Position numbers and translations under genes: made by a program. From a virus: 64,000 nucleotides of DNA. How positions within the stretch are numbered: the stretch's first letter is position 1; every line of letters starts with the position of its first letter. A model generated the notes under the pieces. The model did not search any database, was not told the origin of the DNA, and saw nothing but the letters and a program-made list of their open reading frames with translations. Positions 5,970 to 61,121 of this stretch are shown here, piece by piece. Where the stretch lies: positions 29,579 through 93,578 of IMG/VR virus record IMGVR_UViG_3300031576_000016. The stretch is one strand, 5' to 3'.

Positions 5970-6995
5970 ATGGCAAATAAGCGCATCTTCTATGCCGTGC
6001 AGCAAGCCGCCTTTACCAAGTGCGGCATCGAGGCGTATTCTTCGCCCGACGACAAGGCTGTTCACGGCCTTCAGAGCCTCGGCATCAACACCAAGTTCAA
6101 CCTTGAACAGGTGTTCGAGATTGGTCAGATTTCCATCTACCAAAACATCGAGAACATTCCGGACGTGGAAATCACGATGGAAAAGGTTCTCGACGGCTAC
6201 CCGCTGATTTACCACCTTGCCACGCACGGTGCGACGGTCCCGAGTCTCTCGGGTCGCGCAAACGTCAAGGCAACGGTTGGTCTGTCGATTTTCAACGACA
6301 CGCAGGACTCCGCGTCCGGCACCACGATTGCTCAATGCCAGATGTCTGGTGTGTACGTGAGTTCGCTCGCCTACAACATCCAGGTCCAGGGCAACGCGAC
6401 TGAGCAAGTCACCATCGTGGGCAACAACAAGGTGTGGAACAACGCCTTCACCACGACTTCCTTCGACAACGATGACGCGCCGCTCGCGACCGAAGGCGTC
6501 AACCGTCGTCAGCACATCAAGTTCGGTGCGTCTGACCCGGCCGGCCCGGTCAACAGTCACTTGCCGCAGGACATCCCGGGCATCACAAGCTCCGGCACGA
6601 ACGAACTGACCAACGGCGAGTTCGGTGCTCACGTTCAGAGCATCAAGGTTTCCGCAAACCTTGGCCGCGAACAACTGTTCGAGCTTGGCCGCAAGGGTCC
6701 GTTCCACCGCTACGTCAACTTCCCGGTCGAAGTTCGTTGCGACATCGAAGTCCTCAGCACGGCCGGCGACCAGGTCAGCGCTCTCGAAGAAGCGAGCAAC
6801 CTGACTGACCGCAAGATTTTCATCTGGATGACCGAAGGCACGAAGCTCGACCTCGGCACCAAGTCCAAGTTGGCCTCGGTCAACTACGGTGGTGCGAATG
6901 CTGGTCAGAACGGCGGCAACGCCACTGTGACCTACAGCTATGTGACCTTCAACGACCTTACTGTCACGCATCCCGAAGACCCGAGCGCGTTGTAA
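5970..6995 (+). CDS. Major tail tube protein
   Basis: A 341-residue protein with GGGAG 10 bases before ATG 5970. A beta-rich fold, a long central loop and the segment IKVSANLGREQLFELGRKG followed by VNFPVEVRCDIE near residue 230 suggest a tail tube or major tail protein; it is also the last gene before a strong terminator and lies between neck genes and the tape-measure group. No sheath gene follows, consistent with a non-contractile tail. About 45 residues of this protein recur, diverged, in a separate small gene at 56,296-56,538 on the other strand. Confidence 0.72.
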   Translation: MANKRIFYAVQQAAFTKCGIEAYSSPDDKAVHGLQSLGINTKFNLEQVFEIGQISIYQNIENIPDVEITMEKVLDGYPLIYHLATHGATVPSLSGRANVKATVGLSIFNDTQDSASGTTIAQCQMSGVYVSSLAYNIQVQGNATEQVTIVGNNKVWNNAFTTTSFDNDDAPLATEGVNRRQHIKFGASDPAGPVNSHLPQDIPGITSSGTNELTNGEFGAHVQSIKVSANLGREQLFELGRKGPFHRYVNFPVEVRCDIEVLSTAGDQVSALEEASNLTDRKIFIWMTEGTKLDLGTKSKLASVNYGGANAGQNGGNATVTYSYVTFNDLTVTHPEDPSAL

Positions 6996-13300: not shown

Positions 13301-16300
13301 GCCTGGCGGCTGCTACACTCAGCAGGAAGGAAGTGTTGCAGCGTATCCCGGCCGGCTCCTCGATTGCTGGCATCGGTGCCTTCGGTGTGGCTATCAAGAC
13401 GCCCGATGGCGACGTGATTCGCGCTCAGGCCGACAAAGCACCGGACCTCGCAAACAAATACGCCGCTGAGATTGGACGCAAGCCGTTCAAGCCTTGGCAG
13501 TACGCAACCGCTCGCCCGCCTATTGATGAAGTGTTGCAGCCGACAGCCACGATGACTGTCAAGAAGGGTGAACGCTCAACGTTCATGGAGCGTCTGCCTT
13601 ATGTGACGCCGCTCACCGAGCTTCCTCACCATCAGCAGGAAGAAGCTCATGAGAAGGCCCAGGCAGAACTGTTGCCGTCGATGGCCAAAAAGGGCTGGAT
13701 GCTTACTGACAAGCACAAGGGCAACCTAGCGGTTGACAAGGCCGGCCGGTTCATCGCGCTTGACCCGGCGACTGCCAAAAAGATGAATGAGGACCAGCAG
13801 TCGCGGCTTCTCAGGATTCTCGCTTCAGACAAAGCGGTTGCTACTGGCCTGCCAGGGGCTCAGGTCGATGAGTCTACGATTCACGACCCGCGTCTGAGTG
13901 TTAGCCCGCCAAGTCCAACAGTGCAGACGCGCGGTCGTAAAAAGTTCGACATCGGCGGCGAAGCCGCTTTGCCGGAAGCAATGAAGTTGTTGCAACAACG
14001 CTTCCAGACTTTCGACGTGTCGCGTATTGCTGAGAACGTGACGTTTCACGACAAGATTCCATCGAAGACTTTCCCAGAGCGTGGCGCGATTGGTAAGTTT
14101 TATCCGGAGACGGATGAAATTGCCCTTTCTCGCCAGTTGAAGTCTCCGCGCCTTCTTGCAAAGACGCTGCTTCATGAATTCGTTCATAGGATTGATTACG
14201 ACGAGGGCACGCAAAAGCGGCATGGCTCTCGCGACAAAAAGTCTGTTCCCGGCAAGTTGGCTGCGCAGCTTCAGCCTGCATGGTCTGAAATGGCGATGCA
14301 GAGATATTTCAAGGGTAAGACCAAGGAACAGTTGACTCCGAAGGAACAAGAGTCGCTGGCATATCTGACGGCTCCACATGAAGTTCTTGCCTACATGGTC
14401 TCGGACGTGGCCACTCGGGACAAGGACCAGGTTCCTGAAGAACATGAAAAGGCTGTGCAGACACTGCTCAGGCGTCACCTACCGGCTCGGCAACCGCAGA
14501 AGTACGAACGTGGCGGATGGGTTGTCCCTGGCGAAGGCAACACTGACTCCTTTCCTGCTGACCTTGCTCAGGGTTCGTATGTCATCCGGAAGTCCTCGGT
14601 TCAAAAGCTCGGCGCGTCCAACATCCTGAAGATGGCAACCGGCGGCACTGTCCCGGCATTGCTCATGCCTGGCGAGGTTGTTATTCCGCCAGGTAAGGCT
14701 CGTCAAATCGGTCGTCACGCTCTGACCGAGATGAACCTTCACGGCCGTATGCCGTTCGCTCAGGGCGGCTTTGTGCGGATGGCAACTGGCGACCAGGTGC
14801 CGAAACAGGAGACTGTCAAGGTCGGCGCGCTACCTGAACGTTTTCAGGATGACGTTGAAAGGATGTTTCGTGGACTTGGTGCCAAGGTTCAGAAGCCACT
14901 GCATGAACTTGAAGTGGTCATTGAGCGGTTCGGCAAGAACATTGTCCGCGTTGTGAAGATTGTCGATGTGGCTGTCACTTCTACCGCGTTGCCAAAATCG
15001 GCAGCTTCTGCTGCTACGACTCCAGCAACCAAGCCACAAACAGTGCCTGCGCTGCAAATAGTCCGGGACCTGAAAGCTCACTTGATTGCTCAGGCTGAGG
15101 CGGGTGGTAAGTCTGGCAAGCTTTCTTCCGAGCAGGTTGAGAAGCGCAAGGCTCGCTATGACAAAATGCTCAGTGAGGAAAATCCAGAACGGTCGCTAGA
15201 AAAGTATGCCAAGTTTCAAACGAAGGCCCCGTCCTTCAGTGGTTACTTGGACAAGCGAGACCGCAAGCAAGCTGCCGAGGACCTGAAGAGCACCATCTAT
15301 ACGTCGTACCTGGAGACTGGCACGACTAGCAAATACAAGAGCGCCAAAACTCCCGAAGAACGTGGTCGCGTGTTAGCTACGGCTGTGCCAAAGTACATTC
15401 GTCAAAATCTTGCCGATTTTGAGGGTGGTACTGAGACTGGTCGCAGCTATGAGACTGCGAAGAAGACTCGTGGCCTAGAGAGTCAATATCAAAAGGCGCT
15501 GAGGACACAGTCGCCAGAAGAAGCTTTGAAGTCGGTTGTTTATCAGGCAACAGCAAAGCGCATCCAGTATGAAGAAAGCTCTCGTCAAAATAAGGGTAAA
15601 GCGCCACGAACCCAAAAAGAGCTTCAAGCTGCAATTGAGGAACGATACCAGACGCGCATGGGCAAGTATGATGCCCACGACTTTGAGGGGCCGGCTGCGG
15701 ATGTGGCTCGCGCAAAACTGTTCGGGCACAAAGACCATATCAAACGCGGTGCCGAGGAAGCTTCTGCACGTACCGGCAAAAGCGTTGACGAAACCAGGGT
15801 CGATAGTCTTGAAGCACTCCATAGTAGCCTTGGCGATAGTTCTCAGGCTGCGGCCATTTATCGTCAGCAACAAACCACCGGTCTCCAAAGCCAACTAAAG
15901 CGCGGTAAAATCAGCCAGGCTACTTTTGAAAAGCGAGTGGCCAAGCTCGATTCTCTAAGCGACGATAAGGCATCGAAACTATTACTGTATACCAGGGATG
16001 GTACGCTGCGCGAGAAGGTTGGCAAGCAGCTTGCTGCCGCCGGCATTACCGCCGGTAAGACTCCTCAAGAGACTCGGGAGAACATTGGTAAACGCCTCCA
16101 GGAAATGAAGGGAGAGTTGGAGGCTGCTAAGCCGACAACGGTTCCCGAAGTTGCCGGTCGCGGCCTCACGCCGGAAGAGAAGCGTAAGCGACTCGTTGAC
16201 CAAGAAGTTCGCGGTGCGACCCTAGAGTCCGACTTGACTCCAAGCAAAGCCGACTTGAAGGAGTTGCGCAAGGACCCGGCCTTTGTAAAACAAGAGAAGC

Positions 16301-33600: not shown

Positions 33601-36222
33601 CGGCCGTTTTCGACGCGGCACAACGCGAAGTTCATGTCGCATTACCAGGACCCTACCCTTCACTGCTCAGTTGACCGTTACTCATTGGACCCCTGGAAGG
33701 ACTACAATGATATCGAAGCATTCCTATGGGGTGAGGAATATGAGGGGCTTCACGCATATCGACGTGGTGTTCGTAGAGATGCTCGTGCTGTCGGGCTCCG
33801 TGCGCCATTGGTCATGAGCGGCTGGGGTTACGATACCGATGGTAGGCCAACTCCACGTCTCGAAGGCGTTATTGTTGGCATTAGTGGTGGCTGTCCATAT
33901 GTCGTTTATAGTCCAGGGCACGGTCTCGCTAGTGGCTATAAGCTTTTCATTTCCGAATCGAGCAACACCACAATCAACGACCGCGAGTGGCCGGTCACAG
34001 TTATTGATGCTGACTACTTTGAGCTTACTGGCTCTTGTGTCAGTCCGGATGATAGCAGTAGTAGTTATAGCGGGTCGGAATCGTGGTCTTCTAATAGCTC
34101 ATCGAGTTCTGTTTCAGCTTCTTCTGATTCGTCGCTGAGTTCTTCTTCGACTTACTCTTCGAGTTCTACTTCAAGTTCGAGTAGCTCTGCTTCGAGTGAC
34201 AGTGACTCTTCCGCTTCGAGTATGTCCGATGCGTCCTCGGGCTCTACTGGTAGCAGCGAGTCGTCCTCCAGTGTACTCAATACGTCCGAGTCCAGCTATA
34301 CACAGAGCAGTAGTTCGTCCTGGAGCACTTCGAGCGATTCGTCGTCTACGTCGCTTTCGTCTTCGTCCGACTCCAGCTTCAGTTCGGTGAGCAATGCGTC
34401 TTCTGATAGCACCGAGTCACAAAGCTCTCTGTCTGAGTCGTCGTTGTCAAAAGAGACAACGTCACTTGGTATCTGGGTTGCTCTCGATTGGGAACCGGGC
34501 ACGCTATATCATTCGGAAAAGTGGAAGACAGGACCATACGATGCGATGTGGGACGCAAGGCGTGGCGTGTGGACTTCGCACGATATCGTGAAGGGCGTAG
34601 CCTCAAGCGCAATCCCTGGCGATATGGGAGGCGCAGCCAATGTCGTTGTGTGGCATAATCACGATGAAGCCACGTCATGGACTATGCAGTGTTGGAACTG
34701 GATGGAAGAAGATATTCCATCGGGCGCAAGGGTCTACTGCATGTACAATGTGGTGGATAATAGGTGGTATGCGTTCAGTAGCTCGGTCCCGGAGGAAGAT
34801 ACTTCGTCTAGTAGCTCACAGAGCAGCCAATCCAACTCGTCAGAGTCTTCCAGCACTCTATCGTCCATATCAAGTTCGACTGAGTCTTCCGCATCATCAC
34901 CAAGTGGATGTGGAGACTGCTACGCATTGCCTGACTGCTGGGCAGTTACTTTTGATGGCCTGGTCAATAGAAATTGTCAAGGGGATTCGTCCAGTAGTAA
35001 TGTGTACTTTGAGCCGGGCTCGGAAGTGCCAAATGGCTGCGGTCAATTCAATGATACGTTCGTCATGGAACGAACCGCTTTCTGCCAATGGGACTCAAAT
35101 CCAATTTGGACTGGATGCGGTGCTGACCCGCGACAAGTTCGACTTGAGTATGGCGTAGACCCAGATGGCATTTCTCCGGATATTGGTTGGTATCTTTGGA
35201 TTCCGGGCTCCAGTGTTCTAAGTGAAGTCGTCTACTTCATGGAAGAGGACCTATGGGATTGCACCGGCGTGAATATGATGGTGCAACTCAGAACTGCACC
35301 ACCGTTAGATGTTGATTGTAAGCCTTGGCCGCTTACTGTCATAGTTTCAGCTGTTTCCTGCTTTGACCTTGACTCTAGCAGTTCGTCGTCATACTCTTCT
35401 AGTTCGTCTTCATCAAGCTACACACAAACGAGTTCGTCTTCGCCTTCGAGTTCTAGTTCCGATTCGACATCTGCCTCATCTACGTCTATGTCGAGTTCGA
35501 CGCAAAGCTCTGGGTCTGAAAGCTCTGTATCAGAATCGTCGTCTAACTCAACATCTTCGGCATCGTCTGTTAGCTCGATGTCTGAAAGCTCAGCGTCGGA
35601 ATCAACAGCATCATCTGATTCGACTTCGTCGGGCTCGTCAAGTTCTTCGTCGAGTTCGCAAAGTTCGCAATCAGAATCCTCGGCGTCTGAGTCCTCAAAT
35701 TCAGAATCTACTGCGTCGTCTCATAGCACTGATTCTTCGTCCACGGCCTCTTCTACGAGTTCAGCATCGACGGTTGTCTCAAATTCGTCCTGGAGTAGCA
35801 CATCGTCAAGTCTAGCAAATTCTGAATCTAGTCAATCCGTTTCCGGTGAAGGATGTATCCTCTACGGACCGCCGGCTACGGTATCGAATGGTTGGCTAAG
35901 ACTTCAAAAATATGGCGTAAGCGTGGTTGATGGAGAACTTGTTTGTGTCAATTCGGGCTTTGACGAAATTTATGTGTGTTGCAATAATGGTGAAGACAAC
36001 AGTAGTTCGAGTTCGCATAGCATCTCTTCGCCGAGCAGCTTGACAAGCGGTAGTTCGCAGAGTCGTTCTGGCGGACATGATTTTGATAATCCTCATAGCA
36101 TCCGTGGCAACATACAACTTGCTTTTGTGCCTTCTGAAGCCAACGAAGCCAAAAAAGTTTTCATTGGCATTGTGCCGATGGCAAACGTAGAATTTGATGA
36201 CGATGAGTCGTCAGGAGTATAA
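30685..36222 (+). CDS. Tail hub/tip protein with serine-rich linkers and Cys-rich domains
   Basis: A 1,845-residue protein. The N-terminal ~350 residues (SASVLELIQQICEDAQCDF; DGLPTYEAVCVD) look like a baseplate hub or tail-tip domain. Two copies of a small beta module of the kind often annotated FCCH-like occur near residues 353-430 (PIVVTTAEPHLFTTGTKVTV) and 1,056-1,117 (VVYSPGHGLASGYKLF). After residue 1,120 come four serine tracts (about 1,124-1,256, 1,373-1,407, 1,563-1,720 and 1,773-1,794) separating small domains: a Trp-rich one (1,258-1,368), a Cys-rich one (1,408-1,560; GCGDC, NGCGQFN, FCQW) and a short one (ILYGPPATVSNG). The layout suggests a hub that extends flexible, surface-exposed receptor-binding or carbohydrate-bearing arms. 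Confidence 0.7.
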   Translation: MPFTRTTFLGASIRGFNTAIGWNGQQSTLTVQLVVDPLNGDVFNPPPVGTPIYFQVGYFYFFGLLQKWEKKNDKDGLPTYEAVCVDPKEILDGAQVILGGYSGTTTGIPNLYNAFGFWESTGFGNSYTNESGMPWFRAMSALTTMANTFGGTPFGGPLNFRGYTYSLDLSRLPVPPSYYRVGNVSASVLELIQQICEDAQCDFTVELFGYQIRIRTVSRFAQPPLGTINAITSTNWGGTVVRSNSGLECRNELTTAFLVGGDVNTLYETQGIVQFWGYDLAGSPLTGTDTYFWYPRMVLNPPAPAYAVDAKKRFPVPVISATRPADWDAYRWPDPAPTGPGTQNGYIWARKSLRITAATNATPIVVTTAEPHLFTTGTKVTVAGCLGNTAANGAAWVITYRTATSFSLDTSAGNGNYTGSGTVIWDTVGAGIPAGVVNIGRFTWSNQRQGGELLQGESMTLNATAVAGILGSTTYDCSTFEMRCAQANMESWSSYMHAVRPDMAQRIGLTSRVRNMHPVEGVVLPRDAFNDDAAAVQRRQLMAVQGDLAQKEVAMWQFVKSRADEFMGKKFLVGLPFILQAQDPETLHLKSSYKVTDAGYLPEGATPLGLTSLNEDTFKTQDGRFKAFVKFDNLVGADFEKISAQGTVVENNVLFMDVQVQPNIVFAPAPSAVVTLSGPLLDKVDSGVTGDMSIIAAILQMNPPQAQQVLQAGQQGTVGVRCSPRTRNPAAIAVPLQSNIMTYGPWWAVGAPGKVKFEHDQGLTPWNYGSYTNMANAGLARVGTIISTMQVSEAGTIELAGAPMRPMGGMFSLGDVLSANGPNMTNMDVNYNTNGVTTSFHFKTYTPRFGVFTKGYTERLKKLGQTAQELRRAMRLSFKEQQEVQTAQGEAARTNRRFLEGAPPAVLRESPSELFVARLFHDPNGGATRVGVAVTTTKEGLEFVNAATDGIRDAKADEAYQSTAAMDLAGLFRPFSTRHNAKFMSHYQDPTLHCSVDRYSLDPWKDYNDIEAFLWGEEYEGLHAYRRGVRRDARAVGLRAPLVMSGWGYDTDGRPTPRLEGVIVGISGGCPYVVYSPGHGLASGYKLFISESSNTTINDREWPVTVIDADYFELTGSCVSPDDSSSSYSGSESWSSNSSSSSVSASSDSSLSSSSTYSSSSTSSSSSSASSDSDSSASSMSDASSGSTGSSESSSSVLNTSESSYTQSSSSSWSTSSDSSSTSLSSSSDSSFSSVSNASSDSTESQSSLSESSLSKETTSLGIWVALDWEPGTLYHSEKWKTGPYDAMWDARRGVWTSHDIVKGVASSAIPGDMGGAANVVVWHNHDEATSWTMQCWNWMEEDIPSGARVYCMYNVVDNRWYAFSSSVPEEDTSSSSSQSSQSNSSESSSTLSSISSSTESSASSPSGCGDCYALPDCWAVTFDGLVNRNCQGDSSSSNVYFEPGSEVPNGCGQFNDTFVMERTAFCQWDSNPIWTGCGADPRQVRLEYGVDPDGISPDIGWYLWIPGSSVLSEVVYFMEEDLWDCTGVNMMVQLRTAPPLDVDCKPWPLTVIVSAVSCFDLDSSSSSSYSSSSSSSSYTQTSSSSPSSSSSDSTSASSTSMSSSTQSSGSESSVSESSSNSTSSASSVSSMSESSASESTASSDSTSSGSSSSSSSSQSSQSESSASESSNSESTASSHSTDSSSTASSTSSASTVVSNSSWSSTSSSLANSESSQSVSGEGCILYGPPATVSNGWLRLQKYGVSVVDGELVCVNSGFDEIYVCCNNGEDNSSSSSHSISSPSSLTSGSSQSRSGGHDFDNPHSIRGNIQLAFVPSEANEAKKVFIGIVPMANVEFDDDESSGV
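34054..34452 (+). repeat. Serine-rich tract 1 in tail hub/tip
   Basis: About 130 codons, mostly serine with scattered Thr, Asp, Glu, Ala and Tyr. All six serine codons are mixed, so the tract is not a simple DNA microsatellite and the amino-acid composition itself seems to be maintained. Confidence 0.85.
34801..34905 (+). repeat. Serine-rich tract 2 in tail hub/tip
   Basis: About 35 codons, mostly Ser with Gln, Asn, Glu and Thr, joining the Trp-rich domain to the Cys-rich domain of the hub/tip protein. Confidence 0.8.
35371..35838 (+). repeat. Serine-rich tract 3 in tail hub/tip
   Basis: About 155 codons; the longest tract. Units such as SSESSxSES and SSSS interleave with Ala, Thr and Met. 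Both AGY and TCN serine codons occur throughout. Confidence 0.85.
36001..36066 (+). repeat. Serine-rich tract 4 in tail hub/tip
   Basis: A short tract (SSSSSHSISSPSS and onward) before the final beta segment of the protein. Confidence 0.7.
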
Positions 36223-36225
36223 ATT

Positions 36226-36858
36226 ATGTCAGTGCCAATCATTGTCACATATCAGGGCGAGCAACTAGCTCTCCGAAAAATGTTTCAGTTGAATGACGGC
36301 GGCGTTGGTTACGGCGCTGCGTTCTTCCTGATTCGACTGTTCACCAACAACATCGTCCCAACAAAAGACCATATTTGGAGTGATTTTACAGAAGCCGCTT
36401 ATTCTGGCTACGCAATCGAAACATTTGCTCCTGGCAACTTTACGATTCCAGCCACGGTTGACGGCTTGACATTTACTGTAGCTGACAAAGCGATGTTTCA
36501 GCACAATGGCGGTGCCACAGCAGAAGTTGTCTACGGATGGCTCATGGAGTACGCTTGTCCTGGCTACCCAAGCGGAAGTATTGCAACGCCTACTTTTCGG
36601 CACTTGGTTTGTGCCCAACGTTTTGCTGAGCCAAAAACAATGGCTGCCGTCAGCGATATTATCATCGTTGATTTGAAGTATTACGCTTGCATTGCTTGTC
36701 CAGAAGACCCGGAGAGTTACGGCAACCTATCTTCTCTGTCTCGGTCTTCAAGTTCAAGTTCTTCTTCGTCTAGCTCTTCTAGCACTTCGAGTTCTTCTAG
36801 CTCGACTGCTTCTAGTGATTCTTCATCCGCATCGTCGGAATCATCATCGGTTTTGTAA
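36226..36858 (+). CDS. Small virion protein with serine-rich C-terminal tail
   Basis: A 210-residue protein with AGGAG at good distance, 3 bases after the hub/tip stop. Residues 1-165 form a globular domain (AAFFLIRLFTNNIVPTKD, EAAYSGYAIETF, VVYGWLMEYA), the pattern of a common small phage virion protein found near tail fibres. Residues from about 169 to the end are almost pure serine with a few Thr, Ala, Asp and Glu (nt 36,733-36,855), matching the linkers in the hub protein. It may form part of the same tip or fibre structure. Its stop abuts the first glycan gene. Confidence 0.65.
   Translation: MSVPIIVTYQGEQLALRKMFQLNDGGVGYGAAFFLIRLFTNNIVPTKDHIWSDFTEAAYSGYAIETFAPGNFTIPATVDGLTFTVADKAMFQHNGGATAEVVYGWLMEYACPGYPSGSIATPTFRHLVCAQRFAEPKTMAAVSDIIIVDLKYYACIACPEDPESYGNLSSLSRSSSSSSSSSSSSSTSSSSSSTASSDSSSASSESSSVL
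36733..36855 (+). repeat. Serine-rich C-terminal tract
   Basis: About 40 codons, over 75 percent serine, ending the 210-residue virion protein. Serine codons are mixed (TCT, AGT, AGC, TCG, TCA and TCC). Confidence 0.85.
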
Positions 36859-37533
36859 ATGGCACACATCATCATTCCGGCTCGTCTTCATTCTGTTCGC
36901 TTCCCTCGCAAGTTGCTCGCGCACTTTCGCGGCAAACCAGTTCTCCAGCATACTTGGGAGGCCGCTAAAGCGACCGGCTTAGATGTTGCAATAGCTACGG
37001 CTGATACGGAAATAGCCGAAGCTGCGCTTCGGTGGGGAGCCGAGGTCTACATGACTGGCAGATATAAAGATGGCACCAGCCGCGTAGCGGCTCTTGCCGC
37101 AACTCTCAATTTGGAGTGCGTTATCAATTTGCAAGGAGACGAGCCAACCGTCAAACCGGAAGATTTGCTAAGACTCGCCGAGTTCATGCGGACTCATCAC
37201 GAGTATTATATGGTGACTCTGGCTGCACCATTCGGATTTGGCCAAAATTACGACGACCGCAACCTAGTCAAGGTGACATCAGCCGGTTACCGAGCCCTTT
37301 ACTTCAGCCGGGCTCCAATCGAAGGTGCCATGAAACACGTCGGTGTGTATGGGTTTCATTGCCCCATCCCGCCACGAGATGAGCAATCACCACTGACGAT
37401 TGCCGAAGGTCTCGAACAAATGTTTTGGCTTGAAAGCGGCGTGCGTATCGGTGTCTTGAAAGTGGACGAGCCAACTTACGCGGTGGACGTTCCCGAGGAT
37501 TTGAAATGGTTAGAGACCCACGCGAATGCGTGA
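36859..37533 (+). CDS. kdsB: CMP-Kdo/CMP-sugar synthetase (KdsB-like cytidylyltransferase)
   Basis: A 224-residue protein of the 3-deoxy-manno-octulosonate cytidylyltransferase family, which joins CTP to Kdo or a related acidic sugar to give the CMP-sugar. Motifs: IIIPARLHSVRFPRKLL near the N-terminus (nucleotide-binding loop), DGTSR, and INLQGDEP (family signature with the metal-binding aspartate); the C-terminal VDEPTYAVDVPEDL also fits. It is slightly shorter than the usual ~245-250 residues. It starts directly after the tail gene stop without a clear SD and overlaps the next gene by 28 bases. Substrate (Kdo, sialic or another nonulosonic acid) cannot be told by eye. Confidence 0.85.
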   Translation: MAHIIIPARLHSVRFPRKLLAHFRGKPVLQHTWEAAKATGLDVAIATADTEIAEAALRWGAEVYMTGRYKDGTSRVAALAATLNLECVINLQGDEPTVKPEDLLRLAEFMRTHHEYYMVTLAAPFGFGQNYDDRNLVKVTSAGYRALYFSRAPIEGAMKHVGVYGFHCPIPPRDEQSPLTIAEGLEQMFWLESGVRIGVLKVDEPTYAVDVPEDLKWLETHANA

Positions 37534-38534
37534 ACCTTGGGCCAATCATAGGCACCAGGATATTTTCCGGCGGCGGGGCTGAAGCAGTTCATGCTTGCAA
37601 AGACCAGTCCATCAAAGAGACAACCTGGCCTCAGTGCGAGAAGTGTCCACTCTTCTGCACATCGGCTGCCACAACGCCAAACAACAAGCCAAAAAAGACC
37701 AAGGTTGCACCGGAGCCGCCTACAGGCTTGATTGTGAATCAGGCCAAGCAGGTCATGCCGCTTGCGAATACTTGGTCCAATGGCCATATCTTCCTGACTC
37801 TGTCCGGGCCAAGCCTGAAGCTTGTGCCACCGGAGGCCATGACAGAGCGCGGCATCGTTTCGTTCGGCGTCAACAACTCGGCAACTGTCATTCGTCCTAC
37901 ATTCTGGACCTATGGCGACAAGGGCGACAAATTCCACAACGTTATCTGGGAAGACCCGGGCATCATCAAATTTATGCCGGTACGCGGCTGGCATAAAAAG
38001 CATCCGCATATGGTTCGTAACAAGAACTCGGACGGAAGCTTCGCGACAACAGATAAGCAGGGAAGGTTCATGCCAGGCGTGCTGGGCTATGAACGCAACG
38101 CCGTCTTCAACCCTGCCGTGTGGCTTCATGAACCAACCTGCAATTGGGGCAACTCCAAGAAGGCTGCTGAAGAGAATAAGCTGCCCCACATTCTAAACAT
38201 CATGTTCGTCGTATTCCGCCTGAGCTATTACCTTGGTTTCCGACACATATATCTCTTGGGCTGCGACTTCAATATGGTCGTGGACCAGCCTTATGCGTTC
38301 GACGAGAACAAGAATCCGGGGGCCTGCACCAGCAATAACGGCACGTACCTCAAGCTCAACTATATGTTTTCCCTGCTGAAACCACATTTCGATGAGGTCG
38401 GCCTTCAAGTGTTCAATTGCACGCCAGGGTCCGGTTTCCGAACTTTTTCACAACTGCCATTCAAGGAGGCAATGGACAATGCCAAACGAAACGTCCCCGC
38501 AACCATCGACACCAAGGGCTGGTATGATTCGTGA
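37506..38534 (+). CDS. DUF115/GT42-like glycosyltransferase
   Basis: A 342-residue protein; GAGGA lies about 6 bases upstream, inside the end of the cytidylyltransferase gene. Motifs FLTLSGPSLKL, GVNNSA and LGFRHIYLLGCDFNM follow the scheme of DUF115/MptE-like proteins and of GT42 sialyltransferases (GPSL, RCN, ALGYKEIYLSGIDF). An N-terminal cysteine cluster (about residues 8-51, including CEKCPLFC) is extra and could bind zinc. Because the preceding gene makes a CMP-sugar, a CMP-sugar-dependent transferase is an attractive reading, but the donor is inferred. Confidence 0.6.
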   Translation: MVRDPRECVNLGPIIGTRIFSGGGAEAVHACKDQSIKETTWPQCEKCPLFCTSAATTPNNKPKKTKVAPEPPTGLIVNQAKQVMPLANTWSNGHIFLTLSGPSLKLVPPEAMTERGIVSFGVNNSATVIRPTFWTYGDKGDKFHNVIWEDPGIIKFMPVRGWHKKHPHMVRNKNSDGSFATTDKQGRFMPGVLGYERNAVFNPAVWLHEPTCNWGNSKKAAEENKLPHILNIMFVVFRLSYYLGFRHIYLLGCDFNMVVDQPYAFDENKNPGACTSNNGTYLKLNYMFSLLKPHFDEVGLQVFNCTPGSGFRTFSQLPFKEAMDNAKRNVPATIDTKGWYDS

Positions 38535-47956: not shown

Positions 47957-48243
47957 TTCGGTTGTCTCCACAGATTGCAATGATGGCACTGCTTGGTGCT
48001 GTGTGTTATGTGGTCGCCCTGGTCAACATCATCAGGTAGTTTGCCGGTGCCTTTGCAGTGTGTGCAAAAAGGCCGCAAATCAAATGGTTTGCCAATCACA
48101 ACCAACTGCACAATCCGCGTCTGGCACTTGAGGCAGATGTCAATCACACCGTTGCAATTGCGAGTGCTGAAGTGGCCCATCCCCTTGTCGGTGTTGAAGG
48201 ACTGGCCGCAACAATCGCATGAGTAGGTCGCGGTCGTTGCCAT
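47953..48243 (-). CDS. Small multi-zinc-knuckle protein
   Basis: A 96-residue protein with four cysteine clusters: CDCCGQSF, CLKCQ, CTHCKGTG and CHHC. It probably binds two or more zinc ions, without a DNA-binding helix recognisable by eye. It is linked to its neighbours by GTGA and TAATG overlaps inside the sugar operon. Small zinc proteins of this kind are common in phages; role unknown. Confidence 0.6.
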   Translation of the reverse strand: MATTATYSCDCCGQSFNTDKGMGHFSTRNCNGVIDICLKCQTRIVQLVVIGKPFDLRPFCTHCKGTGKLPDDVDQGDHITHSTKQCHHCNLWRQPK

Positions 48244-49214
48244 TATGCGTTCCTCATTTTGGCCATCGCTTCGCGAGGCAGGAGGCGAAATAGCTCCACC
48301 ACTTCGTTGATGCCCTGTTCCAGAGGATGCTCTAACTGAAAGCCGGTGCTGAGAATCTTGGCGTTGGAGACCAGGTAGTTACGCTGGTCCGGGTCGCGAC
48401 CTTCGCCGATTTTCACGGCAGAGTGAGATAGTCCAAGAATGTCGCAAATCTTGTGGGCCAGTTGCAGCTTGGAAATGTTGGCCTTCGGATGGCCCAGGTT
48501 GTAGACGCCATCAGCCAGCACGTGGCCACTGAGAGCAAAGGCGAATGCTCGACACACATCTCGCACATGGACGTAGTTTCGCATGAAGTGCGGCTCGAAG
48601 ATTTCCAGGTACGGCACCGGCTCATAGGCTCGCTGGAAACGAAGGCGGCAGAGTGCGTGCGTGAAATCGTTCACCAATAAGTCGAACCGCATACGTGCGC
48701 TGGCTCCGAAGACTGTGGCCAGGCGAAACACAACTGTGTTGGCCCGGCTTCGCACAACAGATTCCGCTTCGCACTTCGTAATGCCGTACATGGAGATGGG
48801 CTTGAGGGTGTCGGTCTCTTTGCATTCGCCGGTCGCGTCGGTGACCCCGTAACCAGAGTTCGTGTTCGGGTAGACGATGCGCTGATTGGGACTGGCGTTC
48901 TCGACGATGGTCGTGATGGCGTGATGATTGACAGCAGCGGCCGTGGCAGTCATCTTGTCGCACGCCGGAGCCCCGACGATTGCCGCCAGAGGAACAATGG
49001 CGTCAACCTTCTTCAGCAGCTTCTTCATCTGGTCCTTTTGCGTCACATCCTGGTTGACGAACTCGAATAGCGGGTCGCCCACATAGGACGCAAGAGAGTG
49101 GCCGTTCTCATACATGAGATTGTCCACGGCCAGAACGCTGTGGCCGCGAGCTATCAGGTAGCCACAGAGCTTGGAACCAATATATCCCGCCGCGCCTGTG
49201 ATGAGAACTTTCAT
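48243..49214 (-). CDS. NAD-dependent epimerase/dehydratase (SDR)
   Basis: A 323-residue protein; the start at 49,214 (MKVLITGAAGYIG) has AAGGAG 6 bases upstream. It contains the TGxxGxxG cofactor loop, VDNLM, and an intact catalytic YGITK. HFMRNYVHVRDVCRAFAFAL matches extended SDR sugar epimerases such as UDP-glucose 4-epimerase relatives. It is adjacent to and overlapped by another SDR (ATGA), consistent with successive steps on one nucleotide sugar. Confidence 0.8.
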   Translation of the reverse strand: MKVLITGAAGYIGSKLCGYLIARGHSVLAVDNLMYENGHSLASYVGDPLFEFVNQDVTQKDQMKKLLKKVDAIVPLAAIVGAPACDKMTATAAAVNHHAITTIVENASPNQRIVYPNTNSGYGVTDATGECKETDTLKPISMYGITKCEAESVVRSRANTVVFRLATVFGASARMRFDLLVNDFTHALCRLRFQRAYEPVPYLEIFEPHFMRNYVHVRDVCRAFAFALSGHVLADGVYNLGHPKANISKLQLAHKICDILGLSHSAVKIGEGRDPDQRNYLVSNAKILSTGFQLEHPLEQGINEVVELFRLLPREAMAKMRNA

Positions 49215-55838: not shown

Positions 55839-56318
55839 CTAGCTCCTTTGTGCCGTAACGACGGCAAAGTTGTTTTGGATGCGCTTCTGAATGACCCTGA
55901 ACCCGCGCGTGGTGAAGACGCCAACCAACAGCGGGAGAGTAAACGATGACCGGCGAAGTTGCCAGCCTTCAGTCTGCTCGCCGTGGAGCAAGACATTGTA
56001 GTCTTCGATGCGGATGAGGTTCTGTAGGAACTGACGGGCCGCTTCGCCAACGTCAGGACACGCGACCGTGAGAATCCCCTTGTGAGCCAACTTGCCAAGC
56101 CAGTTGCCTAGCACTTCATCAACCTGTTGCGGTGGGAAGTAGCCGAGGATGTCGTGGGCCACAATCTCTTCGGCCTCGCCGTTCTCCACGAGCTTGTCCA
56201 GATTGTTCACATCGCCGACGACTCGACCATGCGTGTCCGGAGTGGGAGCAAAGGGGTCGATGTTGAGGTAGCCGCTTCGCACAGCGCCAGGGTTATCAAA
56301 CAGTAGGTTGACTCGCAT
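55839..56318 (-). CDS. Methyltransferase-like protein
   Basis: A 159-residue protein; the ATG at 56,318 has GGAG at 10 bases, while the GTG 9 bases upstream would be too close to it. GYLNIDPFAPT, VVGDVNNLDKLV, EEIVAHDILGYFPPQQVDEVL and GILTVACPDVGEA follow the order of predicted SAM-dependent methyltransferases that act near glycan genes, but motif I is weak and the protein is short. It overlaps the tail-tube-like fragment gene by 23 bases. Confidence 0.6.
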   Translation of the reverse strand: MRVNLLFDNPGAVRSGYLNIDPFAPTPDTHGRVVGDVNNLDKLVENGEAEEIVAHDILGYFPPQQVDEVLGNWLGKLAHKGILTVACPDVGEAARQFLQNLIRIEDYNVLLHGEQTEGWQLRRSSFTLPLLVGVFTTRGFRVIQKRIQNNFAVVTAQRS

Positions 56319-56538
56319 TGCGTTCACGCTCCATTTGGCCGCAGGTGCATCCTTTAGCCATGAGTGCCTGCGTACTACACACGCAGATAGGTTCGATTTC
56401 GCATCTGACTTCTACAGGGAAATTGACGTACCGATGATACGGACCTCTCCTTGGCAACTCAAAGAGTTCTTTTCTGCCAAGGTCTGCGGACACCTTGATA
56501 TTCTGTAACATGCTCGCGTATTCGTTGGTGTCGGTCAT
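56296..56538 (-). CDS. Diverged tail tube fragment with cysteine-rich C-terminus
   Basis: An 80-residue protein with an excellent SD (GAGGAG, 8 bases from ATG). Residues about 11-48 align closely with the tail tube protein at residues ~220-260: NIKVSADLGRKELFELPRRG and YHRYVNFPVEVRCEIE here against SIKVSANLGREQLFELGRKG and FHRYVNFPVEVRCDIE there. The coding DNA differs at many synonymous sites, so this is not a recent copy. The last 30 residues (CVCSTQALMAKGCTCGQ) differ from the tube and are cysteine-rich. Overlaps neighbours on both sides, which argues that it is expressed in the sugar operon. Confidence 0.75.
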   Translation of the reverse strand: MTDTNEYASMLQNIKVSADLGRKELFELPRRGPYHRYVNFPVEVRCEIEPICVCSTQALMAKGCTCGQMERERNASQPTV

Positions 56539-57554
56539 GCGTATTCTCCTCGGTACGGTATCCTGGCCGCATTGTGAAACAGCGTGTGCCAGTTGCTTGT
56601 AAACGATGGCATGGAAAATCTGGTCAGGATAGTGCGACGTGCCGCCGCTCCCAACTCGGCCACGAGCGAGCTATCGGCCAGCAACCGTTCCAGGTACTTG
56701 CGAAGGACGAGCGGGTCATTCGAGATTAGGCCGTTCTTGCCGTGCTCGATGACTTCGGGAATCATGCAGTTGGCCGTGGAGACACAGGCACAGCCGCAAC
56801 TCATTGCTTCAAGCAGCGCGGTGGGCACAGGCGAAATGAGGCTGGTGTTGAGGAAGATGCGAGCTTCGCGATAGGCCGCGACCAGGTCGGCTGTTGACTT
56901 GGCCGGCTTGGACAGCCCGGGGGTGTCGCCGACGACATGAACTGGTAGACCGCCGGCCGTCTTCCTCCAAAGCTCGAAGCCACAGCACCAGTCGCGGTTC
57001 ACCCAATCGTTGACCACGGAGAGGATGTGCCGCTTCTTCTCTACCTCAGCAGGAGAGAAGAGGTCGGTGTCGATGCCATGATGAATGATTTCTGCTTGCT
57101 GTTCGTCCCAGCCCCATTCTTTCCTGCTGAAGTCGCTGATGAAGACGTTGACGTGCCCCTTCATTTCGCGCAGCAGTTGACGCCGGCCCTTACCCCACGA
57201 TGGATACGGCAAGGTGTGTTCGAGACTCACGAGTGGAAGTTGAAAGCGATGGGAGAAGCGAATCGCTTTCTGGAACTGGCCGAATTTGTTCTGACTCAAC
57301 ACCAGGTCGAAGTCAAGCTCGGGCGGAATCTGGTGGTCGCCCAGGTCGGCATTGAGTAACACGTAGTTCGTGGGGAGCGGCGCGTAGGTGCGATTCCAGT
57401 CCTTGATGCCTGGTGCGCGAACGGCCCAGAACCGGTGACCCGTAAGGCAAAGGCCGGTTTCGTACCGCTCGTGGGTTGGGAACGTCAGGATATTGAGAGG
57501 CTTACCGTCTTCGCGGTGAGCGGCTCTCAGGATGCTTCCGACAACAGAGGGCAT
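56535..57554 (-). CDS. Family 4/1 glycosyltransferase (GT-B)
   Basis: A 339-residue protein; start 57,554 (MPSVVGSILRAA) has GGAG 8 bases upstream. IIHHGIDTDLFSPAE is the linker to the donor domain, and SLISPVPTALLEAMSCGCACVSTANCMIPEVIEHGKNG carries the EAMxCG and phosphate-binding motifs of family 4 enzymes. It overlaps the upstream small gene by 53 bases. Confidence 0.82.
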   Translation of the reverse strand: MPSVVGSILRAAHREDGKPLNILTFPTHERYETGLCLTGHRFWAVRAPGIKDWNRTYAPLPTNYVLLNADLGDHQIPPELDFDLVLSQNKFGQFQKAIRFSHRFQLPLVSLEHTLPYPSWGKGRRQLLREMKGHVNVFISDFSRKEWGWDEQQAEIIHHGIDTDLFSPAEVEKKRHILSVVNDWVNRDWCCGFELWRKTAGGLPVHVVGDTPGLSKPAKSTADLVAAYREARIFLNTSLISPVPTALLEAMSCGCACVSTANCMIPEVIEHGKNGLISNDPLVLRKYLERLLADSSLVAELGAAARRTILTRFSMPSFTSNWHTLFHNAARIPYRGEYA

Positions 57555-57708
57555 TGACCTTGCTCCATAGATAGCGGAACCAGCGAACGAAGAACCACGG
57601 CTGCTTGGGCTGACGAAGAGTCGGGGCGACTGGCAATTTTTCCAGCGTGGCCAGTTCCGCAAGCATTATCGCGTCTTCTGCCGTCATGGGAATCTCAACG
57701 ACGGTCAT
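57502..57708 (-). CDS. Small protein, possibly the truncated part of a longer gene
   Basis: A 68-residue frame from ATG 57,708 (MTVVEIPMTAEDAIMLAELA), helical with a Trp/Phe-rich segment (WFFVRWFRYLW) and a basic C-terminus. Its frame continues upstream through DIHEYITERRGPAKK to an in-frame TAG at 57,754-57,756 and beyond it to an ATG at 57,822. SD for the 57,708 start is weak (GAAGAAG). Confidence 0.45.
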   Translation of the reverse strand: MTVVEIPMTAEDAIMLAELATLEKLPVAPTLRQPKQPWFFVRWFRYLWSKVNALCCRKHPESRSPRRR

Positions 57709-57822
57709 CTTCTTCGCTGGCCCACGACGTTCAGTTATGTACTCGTGAATGTCCTAATAAAGGATGTCTCGTTCATATGGGGAAATGTCGAACAGTTCAC
57801 AGTAGGTTCGGGCTGCTGCCAT
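57709..57822 (-). other. In-frame upstream reading frame interrupted by amber codon
   Basis: From ATG 57,822 (3 bases after the upstream stop) 22 codons encode MAAARTYCELFDISPYERD and onward, then TAG, then 15 codons that read into the downstream 68-residue frame. Both sides read like natural protein, suggesting one original gene split by a nonsense codon, or readthrough. Confidence 0.4.
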
Positions 57823-57824
57823 TG

Positions 57825-58418
57825 TTACACCGCAATGTCTTGTGTTGCGCGACTGGCCAGGTAGTCCTTCAATCTCTTGATGATGGAATCCCAATCACGC
57901 TTGAGGAGTTCGAGTTGAGCCGCCATTCGATAGATGGGGCCTTCCAGGTAGGGCCGGCCAGTTTCGTGAGCGCGGCTCACACACACTGAGACGGGAGTGT
58001 CGAACCACACCGGAGTGGCGTTGATGTCGAGACGAAGGTAGCGAAGCAGGGTTTGTTCGGTAGTCGATGTCTCATCTATAATAACGTCGAACCCACGGTT
58101 TAGCAAAGCCCGAGTTGCGACATCCATCGCGGCGAATACCGAGCCCTCGGCTTCCACTTGGAACTCGCGGCCGTAGAGAGCACGCCGGAAGTCGTCACCG
58201 CAGACAATGACACGCGGGCGGTCCTGATGGCGGAACTCGAAGAACTGTCCCTCGTAGACTTTCGGTACGCGGTCGCCACGAACCCAATCGTCGCACCAAA
58301 CAGATTTGCCGCTGCGCGGGAGCCCGATGGTGAACAACAACCTTCCTCTGCTCACCGTTTGCCGCAAGGGGATTTCTTGTCCGTTGGCGTACAGCTTGGC
58401 TCCATATCCGGTAGGCAT
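57825..58418 (-). CDS. P-loop kinase of polynucleotide-kinase type (AAA_33-like)
   Basis: A 197-residue protein with Walker A GLPRSGKS in LLFTIGLPRSGKSVWCDDW, a CGDDFRRALYG segment, and DVIIDETSTTEQTLLRYL, which fits the lid/base region of T4 Pnk-like 5'-kinases and related small-molecule kinases. Substrate (nucleic acid 5' end, nucleoside or metabolite) unknown. GAGG lies about 10 bases before ATG 58,418. Confidence 0.75.
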   Translation of the reverse strand: MPTGYGAKLYANGQEIPLRQTVSRGRLLFTIGLPRSGKSVWCDDWVRGDRVPKVYEGQFFEFRHQDRPRVIVCGDDFRRALYGREFQVEAEGSVFAAMDVATRALLNRGFDVIIDETSTTEQTLLRYLRLDINATPVWFDTPVSVCVSRAHETGRPYLEGPIYRMAAQLELLKRDWDSIIKRLKDYLASRATQDIAV

Positions 58419-58633
58419 GTGACTTCAACCTCGGCTTGAGTTTCAATCCAGACGCGGGCTCCACAACTGAGCGGCTTGTCCGGACTGTAGATGATACGGC
58501 TGGGGCCGTGAATAACAGCGTCGTGGGCGTAGGTCACACCTTTGCTGGTGCGAATGCTGATGACTGGTTCATTGCGGCTGTGCCGCTTGTTGGAACGGAT
58601 TCGGTGCTGGTTGACGTGAATGCGTTTGAGCAT
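58352..58633 (-). CDS. Conserved phage protein, unknown function
   Basis: A 93-residue protein starting MLKRIHVNQHRIRSN; GPSRIIYSPDKPLSCGARVWIET is a well-conserved segment of a small protein found in many phages and plasmids. It overlaps the downstream kinase gene by 67 bases and the upstream gene by 65 bases, both in other frames. Cysteines at CGAR and near the C-terminus could bind metal. No known function. Confidence 0.7.
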   Translation of the reverse strand: MLKRIHVNQHRIRSNKRHSRNEPVISIRTSKGVTYAHDAVIHGPSRIIYSPDKPLSCGARVWIETQAEVEVTCLPDMEPSCTPTDKKSPCGKR

Positions 58634-59297
58634 AGTTCTTGATGGCCTCCACTGCCGCTTTGGGCGACAGGTACTTTTCCACTCCGCTGCCACGAATCCC
58701 TGGGGCGAAGTTCAAGTCCACCGCATAGGCTGTGGCCTTGCCAAGAACGAAATCGACAGCGAACAAGGGGCGGTCCATGCCGAAGTGTGGCCCAATGTCT
58801 AACTCGACCTGGAACACTTCGCAGTCGCCTTCGCCACAGTTCGAGCGCCAGTCGTCTTTCGCCCGATACTCAATCCAGAAGCGGTGCATCCCGACCTGAA
58901 GCATTCGCCAGCTTACGCCTGTCCAACTCGGAGCGCCGAAGCGACCGACGTATGCTGAGCAGAAGAGGGTGTTACACTGGCGGTCCAACTCTTCCAGCCT
59001 GCTGATGCAGCCATCCCATTTGAACCGAGATGTCTGCGTCAGCCTCTTGCCATCGCCGCCATGAGCGTTCAAATCGTGGTACACAACCAGCCAGCGGACC
59101 CAATGCTGTTCGGCTTCCCACCATATTTCCATCACGTCCTTGACCAGGCCATGTGGCGGGGTCGAGAGACCCATTCCTTCGAGCAAAGCAAACTGCTCGA
59201 TACGATTGGGTCCCTCGGTTCCCATTCGCCTGAACTCCGGGCCGTTCAGGTCGAAGTGGTGGTCATAGTAGTCAGAGAAGTTGCTGACCAGTTTCAT
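58569..59297 (-). CDS. Conserved phage protein, unknown function
   Basis: A 242-residue protein starting MKLVSNFSDYYDHHFDLNG, overlapping the PhoH stop by ATGA. The N-terminal signature with DYYDH and the C-terminal VDFVLGKATAYAVDLNFAPG are familiar from conserved phage proteins sitting next to PhoH. Gly/Trp-rich middle (WWEAEQHWVRWLVVYHD). Function unknown; the C-terminal strand-loop is faintly like ATP-grasp proteins, but this is weak. Confidence 0.65.
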   Translation of the reverse strand: MKLVSNFSDYYDHHFDLNGPEFRRMGTEGPNRIEQFALLEGMGLSTPPHGLVKDVMEIWWEAEQHWVRWLVVYHDLNAHGGDGKRLTQTSRFKWDGCISRLEELDRQCNTLFCSAYVGRFGAPSWTGVSWRMLQVGMHRFWIEYRAKDDWRSNCGEGDCEVFQVELDIGPHFGMDRPLFAVDFVLGKATAYAVDLNFAPGIRGSGVEKYLSPKAAVEAIKNYAQTHSRQPAPNPFQQAAQPQ

Positions 59298-60001
59298 TTC
59301 TTTTGGAGCCGTGGTGTTGGCCCCTCCCATCGTTTGTCCATCTGCCTGACGATGTCTGGCCGCTGACAATCGTCGTGAGTCAATCTCACGTAGCTAACCG
59401 CTGGCAGGCGAATCGGATAGCAGTAGCGCCGAATCATTTCGACGAGCGGATTCAGACCATCGTCGTACAAGTCGGTCTGCGTGAAGTCGCCGCTGATAAT
59501 GAGTCGCGTGCCAACGTCGAGCCGGGTGCAAAGCATACGCAACTGCCCACGGTCGGCATTCTGCGCTTCGTCGCAGATGATGATGGCTCGCTTGATGGAT
59601 TGACCACGCATCAGTTCGAGAGACTGAAGCTCAACAATGTTTTCTCGCATGAGCTTCAGCAACTCGTTGGCGCTGAAGCATTCGTTGAGCACATCAAGTA
59701 GAGGACGCATCCACGGCTGGACTTTCGCGTCTTTGTCGCCAGGCAGGAAACCCATGCGACCGCCGCACTCAACCATTGGTCGCGTGAGAATCAGTCTCTC
59801 GATGCGGCCCTCTTTGAGCATCTGAGCAGCGAGAGCACATGGGATATATGTTTTGCCAGTGCCGGCCGGTCCCGTACAAATGGTGACCGTGGATGTTTCG
59901 ATGGCCTTGAAATACCGTGCCTGATTGTCGGTTCGCGGCTTCAGTTTGCTGCGAGCCAGTTCGAGCGCGGACTTGTCTTGTTCATCTTGCCAGTTCTCCA
60001 T
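59294..60001 (-). CDS. phoH: PhoH-like ATPase
   Basis: A 235-residue protein. Walker A GPAGTGKT in TVTICTGPAGTGKTYIPCA, RPMVECGGRMGFLPGD, and Walker B AIIICDEAQNAD followed by ISGDFTQTDL match PhoH, a P-loop ATPase common in phages and related to RNA metabolism. GGAG lies 8-9 bases before the ATG. Overlaps the upstream gene by 20 bases. Confidence 0.93.
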   Translation of the reverse strand: MENWQDEQDKSALELARSKLKPRTDNQARYFKAIETSTVTICTGPAGTGKTYIPCALAAQMLKEGRIERLILTRPMVECGGRMGFLPGDKDAKVQPWMRPLLDVLNECFSANELLKLMRENIVELQSLELMRGQSIKRAIIICDEAQNADRGQLRMLCTRLDVGTRLIISGDFTQTDLYDDGLNPLVEMIRRYCYPIRLPAVSYVRLTHDDCQRPDIVRQMDKRWEGPTPRLQKK

Positions 60002-61121
60002 CGAGTAGTCTCCGCATTGTGTGGCCTACGTTGTGATAGGTAAAGTCATGCGCCCTCTCCACACCGTTCACGCCCTTGCTGATACGAAGCTCTTTGTTTG
60101 AATAAGCCTCTCGCATCGCTCGGCGTAGACAAGGAACGTCGATAGACCACCACTGTTCGTTCCCTGTGAAAAGGTCACTGAACGTGTCAGTCGCGCCACA
60201 AACCGGCTCTTGTCGGGCAGGCACCAACCAGCCCTGGCAATCACTCAGATAGTCCAGGAAGCCTGTGCAGGCCGTCACGATTGGCGTGCGGCCCATAGCC
60301 ATTGCGTCGAACGCCGGGAGACACCAGGCTTCGCCGTAAGAGGGCATGACAAAACAGTCACAAGCGGAATGCAGACGGAGGATGCCGTGGTCGGTCAGGC
60401 GGTCGAGAACAAGGACTTCTTCCTTGTAGAATTCGGGTCTGCCGCCATGCAGCTTCAACCCTTCCTTCATCTCGGTCGCCAAGATTCGCACACGCGCTTC
60501 CACGTCGTCTTTCGAGACGCCGGACTGGTTCGTCTTGATGACGAGTTGCACCGGCTCGGATGGGTCAAACTCCAGATGGAATGCTTGGATGAGCGCCGAT
60601 AGGTTTTTACGACGCACCAATTCGCCGACGAAGTAGAAGAGGAAGTCGCCGGTTTCGCGATATGGCTTCAAAATATCCAGGGGCTCGTATGACTGCATGA
60701 ACCGCTCAATGTTTGTGGCGTGAGGAACCACGCTCACAGGGATAGTTACACCGCTCGTCCTCGCGGCATCCACCATTTGACGGTTGATGACCAGGGCCTT
60801 GTCCATGCAGTTCAGTCGGCTGGCCCAGGCGCTGTCCTTGAAGTTGCTCGTTTCGCTCGCATACAAGGCGACGTTGGATGCGAAGTGTCCATCAAAATCC
60901 ATCTGATGGGGGAGGACGTGCTGGACGACCACGTCACAGCCGCGAGCTTCGCGAGCTTCTAGTTCGAGGATGCGGGCCGGCGGCTCGTGCTGAGTGGCAT
61001 TGAGCTTCAGCGGGCGTGCTACCACTTCGACGCCTGCCGCATCGAGGGACAGCATGTAGTCGATGGCAGCCTGGCCCCAGCCTGTGCCGTCACGATAGAC
61101 GCCGATGTAGAGAAGTTTCAT
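59982..61121 (-). CDS. Family 4 glycosyltransferase (GT-B)
   Basis: A 379-residue protein with AAGGA upstream. N-terminal KLLYIGVYRDGTGWGQAAIDYM, VVPHATNIERF, FLFYFVGELVRRKNLSALIQAF, and MPSYGEAWCLPAFDAMAMGRTPIVT carry the family 4 donor-binding motifs (E-x7-E region as EAWCLPAFDAM). The acceptor is unknown. Confidence 0.85.
   Translation of the reverse strand: MKLLYIGVYRDGTGWGQAAIDYMLSLDAAGVEVVARPLKLNATQHEPPARILELEAREARGCDVVVQHVLPHQMDFDGHFASNVALYASETSNFKDSAWASRLNCMDKALVINRQMVDAARTSGVTIPVSVVPHATNIERFMQSYEPLDILKPYRETGDFLFYFVGELVRRKNLSALIQAFHLEFDPSEPVQLVIKTNQSGVSKDDVEARVRILATEMKEGLKLHGGRPEFYKEEVLVLDRLTDHGILRLHSACDCFVMPSYGEAWCLPAFDAMAMGRTPIVTACTGFLDYLSDCQGWLVPARQEPVCGATDTFSDLFTGNEQWWSIDVPCLRRAMREAYSNKELRISKGVNGVERAHDFTYHNVGHTMRRLLDGELAR

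Follow-up and report, generated by a model that had tools for sequence, protein, structure and literature searches.

What is a piece of tail tube protein doing in a sugar operon, joined to a cysteine-rich end? The question arises from a short open reading frame (ORF), hereafter the chimera, in a stretch of viral DNA of 64,000 nucleotides (the window, analysed as a whole). A sequence-only reading of the window had described it as an 80-residue gene with a strong Shine-Dalgarno (SD) sequence, and had offered as explanations a decoy or regulator of tube assembly, a module presenting a substrate for glycosylation, or a recombination relic. The gene itself was confirmed, with an open frame, an ATG start and GAGGAG upstream, the sequence 5' of the start being CGAGGAGAATACGC-ATG, a strong SD. 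When the chimera was inspected for signs of a pseudogene (stops, frameshifts or a lost SD), none was found. The coordinates of the features discussed are collected in Table 1.

Table 1. Features of the chimeric locus and of the tail tube gene, in window coordinates.
Feature	Position	Strand	Remarks
Chimeric ORF	56296..56538	-	80 aa; ATG start, TGA stop; open frame intact
Tail-tube-derived part	56392..56526	-	Chimera residues 5-49, corresponding to 216-260 of the tube; strand-long loop-strand
Cys4 tag CVCSTQALMAKGCTCG	56338..56385	-	Chimera residues 52-67
Charged tail QMERERNASQPTV	56299..56337	-	3' of the tag
SD of the chimera, GAGGAG	56546..56551	-	Within the end of the glycosyltransferase gene
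Glycosyltransferase (group 1)	56535..57662	-	Overlaps the chimera at ATGA; listed TTG probably lies upstream of the true start
SAM-methyltransferase-like ORF	55839..56318	-	Start inside the last codons of the chimera
GGAG	56329..56332	-	In the tail of the chimera; possible SD of the methyltransferase-like gene, 10 nt before ATG 56318
Tail tube protein	5970..6995	+	341 aa; predicted major-tail-protein fold (SH-Ab15497/T5/P74-26)
Tube segment homologous to the chimera	6615..6773	+	Tube residues 216-268

A tail tube hairpin in the chimera

The 341-aa protein matched no Pfam or PHROG family, and its identification as the tail tube is supported by its predicted fold. An AlphaFold model made with 17 homologues (pLDDT 80, pTM 0.83) matched in Foldseek the major tail protein of SH-Ab15497 (E 7.5e-10), followed by the tail proteins of T5 and P74-26, and a giant tape-measure-like ORF with PhageMin_Tail is found downstream of the gene. 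The tube protein contains an internal repeat of homologous hairpin-loop units at residues ~33-71 and ~221-258 (hhalign 96%, E 3.7e-9), and the fragment in the chimera corresponds to the second copy, modelled as a strand (222-230), a loop and a strand (254-262). In a different contig of 197 kb (IMGVR_UViG_3300012000_000001, L036), three full-length tube paralogues were seen in tandem at 34993-37599.

The likeness to the tail tube with diverged DNA, claimed in the earlier reading, was borne out when both proteins and their DNA were aligned, homology and divergence being evident alike. Chimera residues 6-57 align without gaps to tube residues 217-268 with 61.5% identity (E 2e-21), and in the 93.6-kb contig as a whole only two places were retrieved (E 2.9e-18 for the match), the chimera being the sole second tube copy. 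Over a core of 37 codons the DNA shows 30 differences, distributed 8/4/18 over the three codon positions and thus mostly at the third (Fisher p 0.0005); part of them may predate the capture of the fragment. The AlphaFold model of the chimera itself was poor (pLDDT 56). Homology of its N-terminal half is to a single hairpin unit of the phage's own tube, a protein with the fold of the tail tube or major tail proteins of T5 (pb6), P74-26 and SH-Ab15497. With only ~45 of 341 residues, the chimera itself does not have the full major-tail-protein fold and cannot form a whole tube subunit, and both the invariant Gly240 and the near-invariant Glu234 are changed.

The fragment was compared with 78 distinct tube sequences. 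At 4 of 42 positions it carries residues never seen in tubes, two of them important: position 240, Gly in 78 of 78 tubes, is Pro in the chimera (G240P), and position 234, Glu in 88% of tubes, is Lys (E234K). Of the hairpin positions that are invariant or nearly so in tubes, R233, L239, P244, F251 and P252 are kept and G240 is the one changed. The profile score of the fragment was lower than the tube median but higher than that of 17 tubes, and its mean identity to other tubes (0.559) was similar to that of the phage's own tube (0.557). As judged from these comparisons, the tube part is conserved to about the same degree as the tube and not generally decayed, and it is released from at least some of the tube constraint. 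With only a few sites departing from this level of conservation, the hairpin may matter in itself.

The cysteine-rich end as a recurrent tag

The earlier reading had called the end of the chimera new and cysteine-rich. The second adjective holds; the first does not, because the same end recurs as a tag on other phage ORFs. That it is common to many unrelated phage proteins had been missed, and it changes the question to be asked of the locus. When CxCx4LMxxGCxCG was searched as an exact DNA pattern in viral contigs, 20 stretches were retrieved, corresponding to 19 distinct ORFs, in 17 of which the motif lies 21 aa or less from the end; when its letters were permuted, the pattern had no match in these contigs. 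The chimera matches the pattern with all eight conserved columns kept and has 14 aa after the last Cys, so that its tag too lies near the C-terminus. A tblastn search with the cysteine-rich end (PICVCSTQALMAKGCTCGQMERERNASQPTV) located the tag at four places in the 595-kb phage genome LR756511.1, in which the tag profile gave seven matches, some of them partial or weak. Two to four tagged ORFs can occur in a single contig, and an RER-type tail follows the tag also in L003, L099, L024 and L025. The profile matches the window copy with E ~5e-15, a value to be read knowing that this copy is among the profile's own sequences.

The carriers of the tag are mutually unlike. They include KOW/SH3-like, DEAD-like P-loop, treble-clef and cement-like structural proteins, several of these labels being weak or by-eye assignments, and others without a family. 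Carriers in one phage share mostly the tag alone, with the exception of the KOW-like carriers of LR756511. None of the other carriers in six tagged contigs and in portions of LR756511 proved to be a fragment of a gene of its own phage, and a comparison of the tagged contigs, several of them read in part, revealed no convincing common gene family as a partner of the tag.

In prokaryote genomes the tag is nearly absent. In 84,980 species genomes the pattern gave four matches, only one of which (L063) has a convincing C-terminal form, the others (L064-L066) looking like chance. Plasmids gave no match, no counterpart was found in Pfam, NCBIfam or PDB sequences, and neither a tag of this kind nor tube fragments turned up in a literature search. 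By its sequence, the Cys4 tag looks like an undescribed recurrent C-terminal tag of phage proteins. The possibility that it is a DNA-level SD cassette, with Gly-Gly as GGAGG and RER as a GAGAGG-like sequence, was set aside as the main cause, since only 3 of 10 Gly-Gly pairs are encoded by GGA-GGN.

Several occurrences deserve separate mention. The L063 tag (1797-1850), the sole C-terminal one in the prokaryote genome collection, lies on a contig of an NC10 MAG; a prophage is one possibility, a phage contig that was binned with the MAG another. In LR756511.1 (L049, ~48211-48294) a tag (DLMARGCKCGQMERERNV) is found in another frame beside an ORF assigned by eye as a DksA/TraR-like zinc finger; tag and carrier look parted by a frameshift, and the next gene starts inside the tail of the tag. 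In two ORFs (L021, 1544-1624; L055, ~13416-13460) the motif is N-terminal instead of C-terminal. Matches to a looser pattern (L050, L051, L052, L054, L056, L057, L059, L061 and L062) had the look of chance or low complexity and were discarded.

The spacing of the cysteines (C1C9C1C) is compatible with zinc binding through four ligands. With a CxC pair and four ligands in a short tail at the C-terminus, the tag resembles the C-terminal metal-binding domain of SecA (SEC-C, PF02810). The second pair of SEC-C is CC or CH; that of the tag is GCxCG, and the tag conserves LM and Gly instead. PF02810 matched neither the chimera nor any of ten tags scanned. Weak matches to the tag region were obtained with two functionally unannotated families of small proteins, PHROG 28167 and 15999, at E values (0.012 and 0.0069, respectively) above the usual thresholds. 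The metal-binding domain of SecA binds ribosomes and SecB (PMC6620043).

Insertion into the sugar operon

The location between a methyltransferase and a glycosyltransferase, as described in the earlier reading, was also confirmed, and the chimera overlaps both genes: it starts within the ATGA that closes the glycosyltransferase gene and its end overlaps the start of the methyltransferase-like ORF. The 5' neighbour was assigned through PF00534 (E 3.5e-14). For the methyltransferase-like ORF no Pfam model scored above the cut-off and a scan with it alone retrieved no relatives, its label coming from sequence resemblance and synteny. Related operons have the order glycosyltransferase, methyltransferase, 54976-like, glycosyltransferase 2 and nucleotidyltransferase. 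In 13 contigs with such a syntenic operon, some of them near-duplicates of each other, the methyltransferase gene starts ~1-2 nt after the glycosyltransferase stop, leaving no room for the chimera. Therefore, the chimera is an insertion in the window. Elsewhere in the same operon, the region 57505-60001, between the glycosyltransferases at 56535-57662 and 59982-61121, contains AAA/polynucleotide-kinase-like, PhoH and other genes; as these are absent at the corresponding place in the related operons, in which the two glycosyltransferases adjoin, they represent a second, larger insertion.

The codon usage of the chimera looks foreign to its surroundings, with a GC3 of 43/80 compared to ~0.70 in its neighbours (p 0.002) and 4 of 7 arginines encoded by AGA/AGG (p 0.018), both being small counts. 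Thus, of the proposed recombination relic, the recombination is upheld by the insertion relative to syntenic operons and by the atypical codons, whereas the decay implied by the word relic finds no support, the ORF, SD and overlaps being intact and the tube part being conserved much like the tube.

No other copy of the whole fusion was found in viral contigs, in scans that may omit the records nearest to the window's genome, so its single occurrence is provisional. Among the INPHARED phages only the tag part was found, in LR756511, and the tube fragment was present in 0 of 17 other contigs with tube homologues. With no second copy, selection on the fusion as a unit cannot be shown.

Origin and possible roles of the chimera

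Two lines of evidence on the origin of the tube fragment disagree. By pairwise identity its nearest relative is the tube of the phage itself (79% in residues 223-260, 38 residues), with which it has the rare Lys226 and Arg256 in common, as would be expected from an old duplication of the own tube segment that gained the tag later, an origin compatible with several functions. A tree of ~42 informative columns placed the fragment outside the clade of the own tube, L032 and L026 with 88% support, although from few sites, and the codon usage is unlike that of the own tube (GC3 0.57 vs. 0.70-0.77). Taken together, these data make such a duplication very unlikely and favour, without certainty, the capture of the hairpin from a related phage.

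We propose that a tube gene, probably that of a related phage lineage, contributed a hairpin unit and a tagged gene its 3' end with CxCx4LMxxGCxCG, a tag that in many cases precedes an RER-rich tail, the two being joined by illegitimate recombination. The joined unit would then have settled in the conserved sugar operon, with the glycosyltransferase gene on one side and the methyltransferase gene on the other, in such a way that the insert spans from start codon to start codon and may leave translational coupling intact, so the chimera would probably be translated as a coupled small protein. To judge by the cysteine spacing, the tag would be a four-cysteine unit, probably a zinc knuckle, which could act like the C-terminal metal-binding tail of the SecA type as a docking element on unrelated proteins. 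The hairpin would have been captured as the N-terminal part, freed from some of the tube constraint and possibly repurposed. An acquired chimeric small gene, with the tag as its likeliest functional part and the hairpin as captured cargo, is the explanation that we prefer, at a confidence barely above even. The chimera resembles phage morons and other small inserted genes in being an extra gene of foreign composition in a conserved operon, and differs from them in its parts, a segment of a structural gene and a recurrent tag.

The main null explanation is that of a recent insertion with a functionless product, in which illegitimate recombination produced an open frame and decay is yet to come. 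Only one case of the fusion is known and its foreign codon usage suggests a recent arrival; still, the SD, the ATGA overlap upstream and the start overlap with GGAG downstream are all intact and every conserved residue of the tag is kept, and we consider this explanation unlikely. The main functional rival is a regulator directed at the tube, whose hairpin would mimic the edge of a tube subunit and bind either that protein or the chaperone serving it, with a metal or a partner brought in by the tag; it would tune tube polymerisation or cap stray tubes. The segment is indeed one complete strand-loop-strand with the conserved loop of the family, and its drift has been no faster than that of the tube. 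Against this role stand the place of the gene in a sugar operon ~50 kb from the tail genes, Pro instead of the Gly240 invariant in 78 tubes, and the absence of a counterpart of its fragment from the 17 contigs mentioned above; we know of no comparable regulator and regard this role as unlikely. Glycosylation of the chimera by the neighbouring enzymes, as a substrate-presenting module, found its sole support in the location between sugar enzymes; the chimera is absent from related operons and its sequence gives no hint of a glycan acceptor, leaving this proposal with hardly any credibility.

Recurrent C-terminal tags on unrelated proteins are usually a sign of a shared handling pathway. With no entry in Pfam or NCBIfam, hardly any occurrence in prokaryote genomes and as many as several copies in one phage genome, the tag may reveal a common process of phages. 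At its most speculative, it would be a phage-wide C-terminal address label that recruits unrelated small phage proteins to a common partner, for instance the host ribosome, and the window gene a tagged regulator of tail assembly acting through its tube-mimicking hairpin, a combination that we consider improbable. The chimera offers a defined cargo, part of a known structural protein, on which the effect of the tag can be tested.
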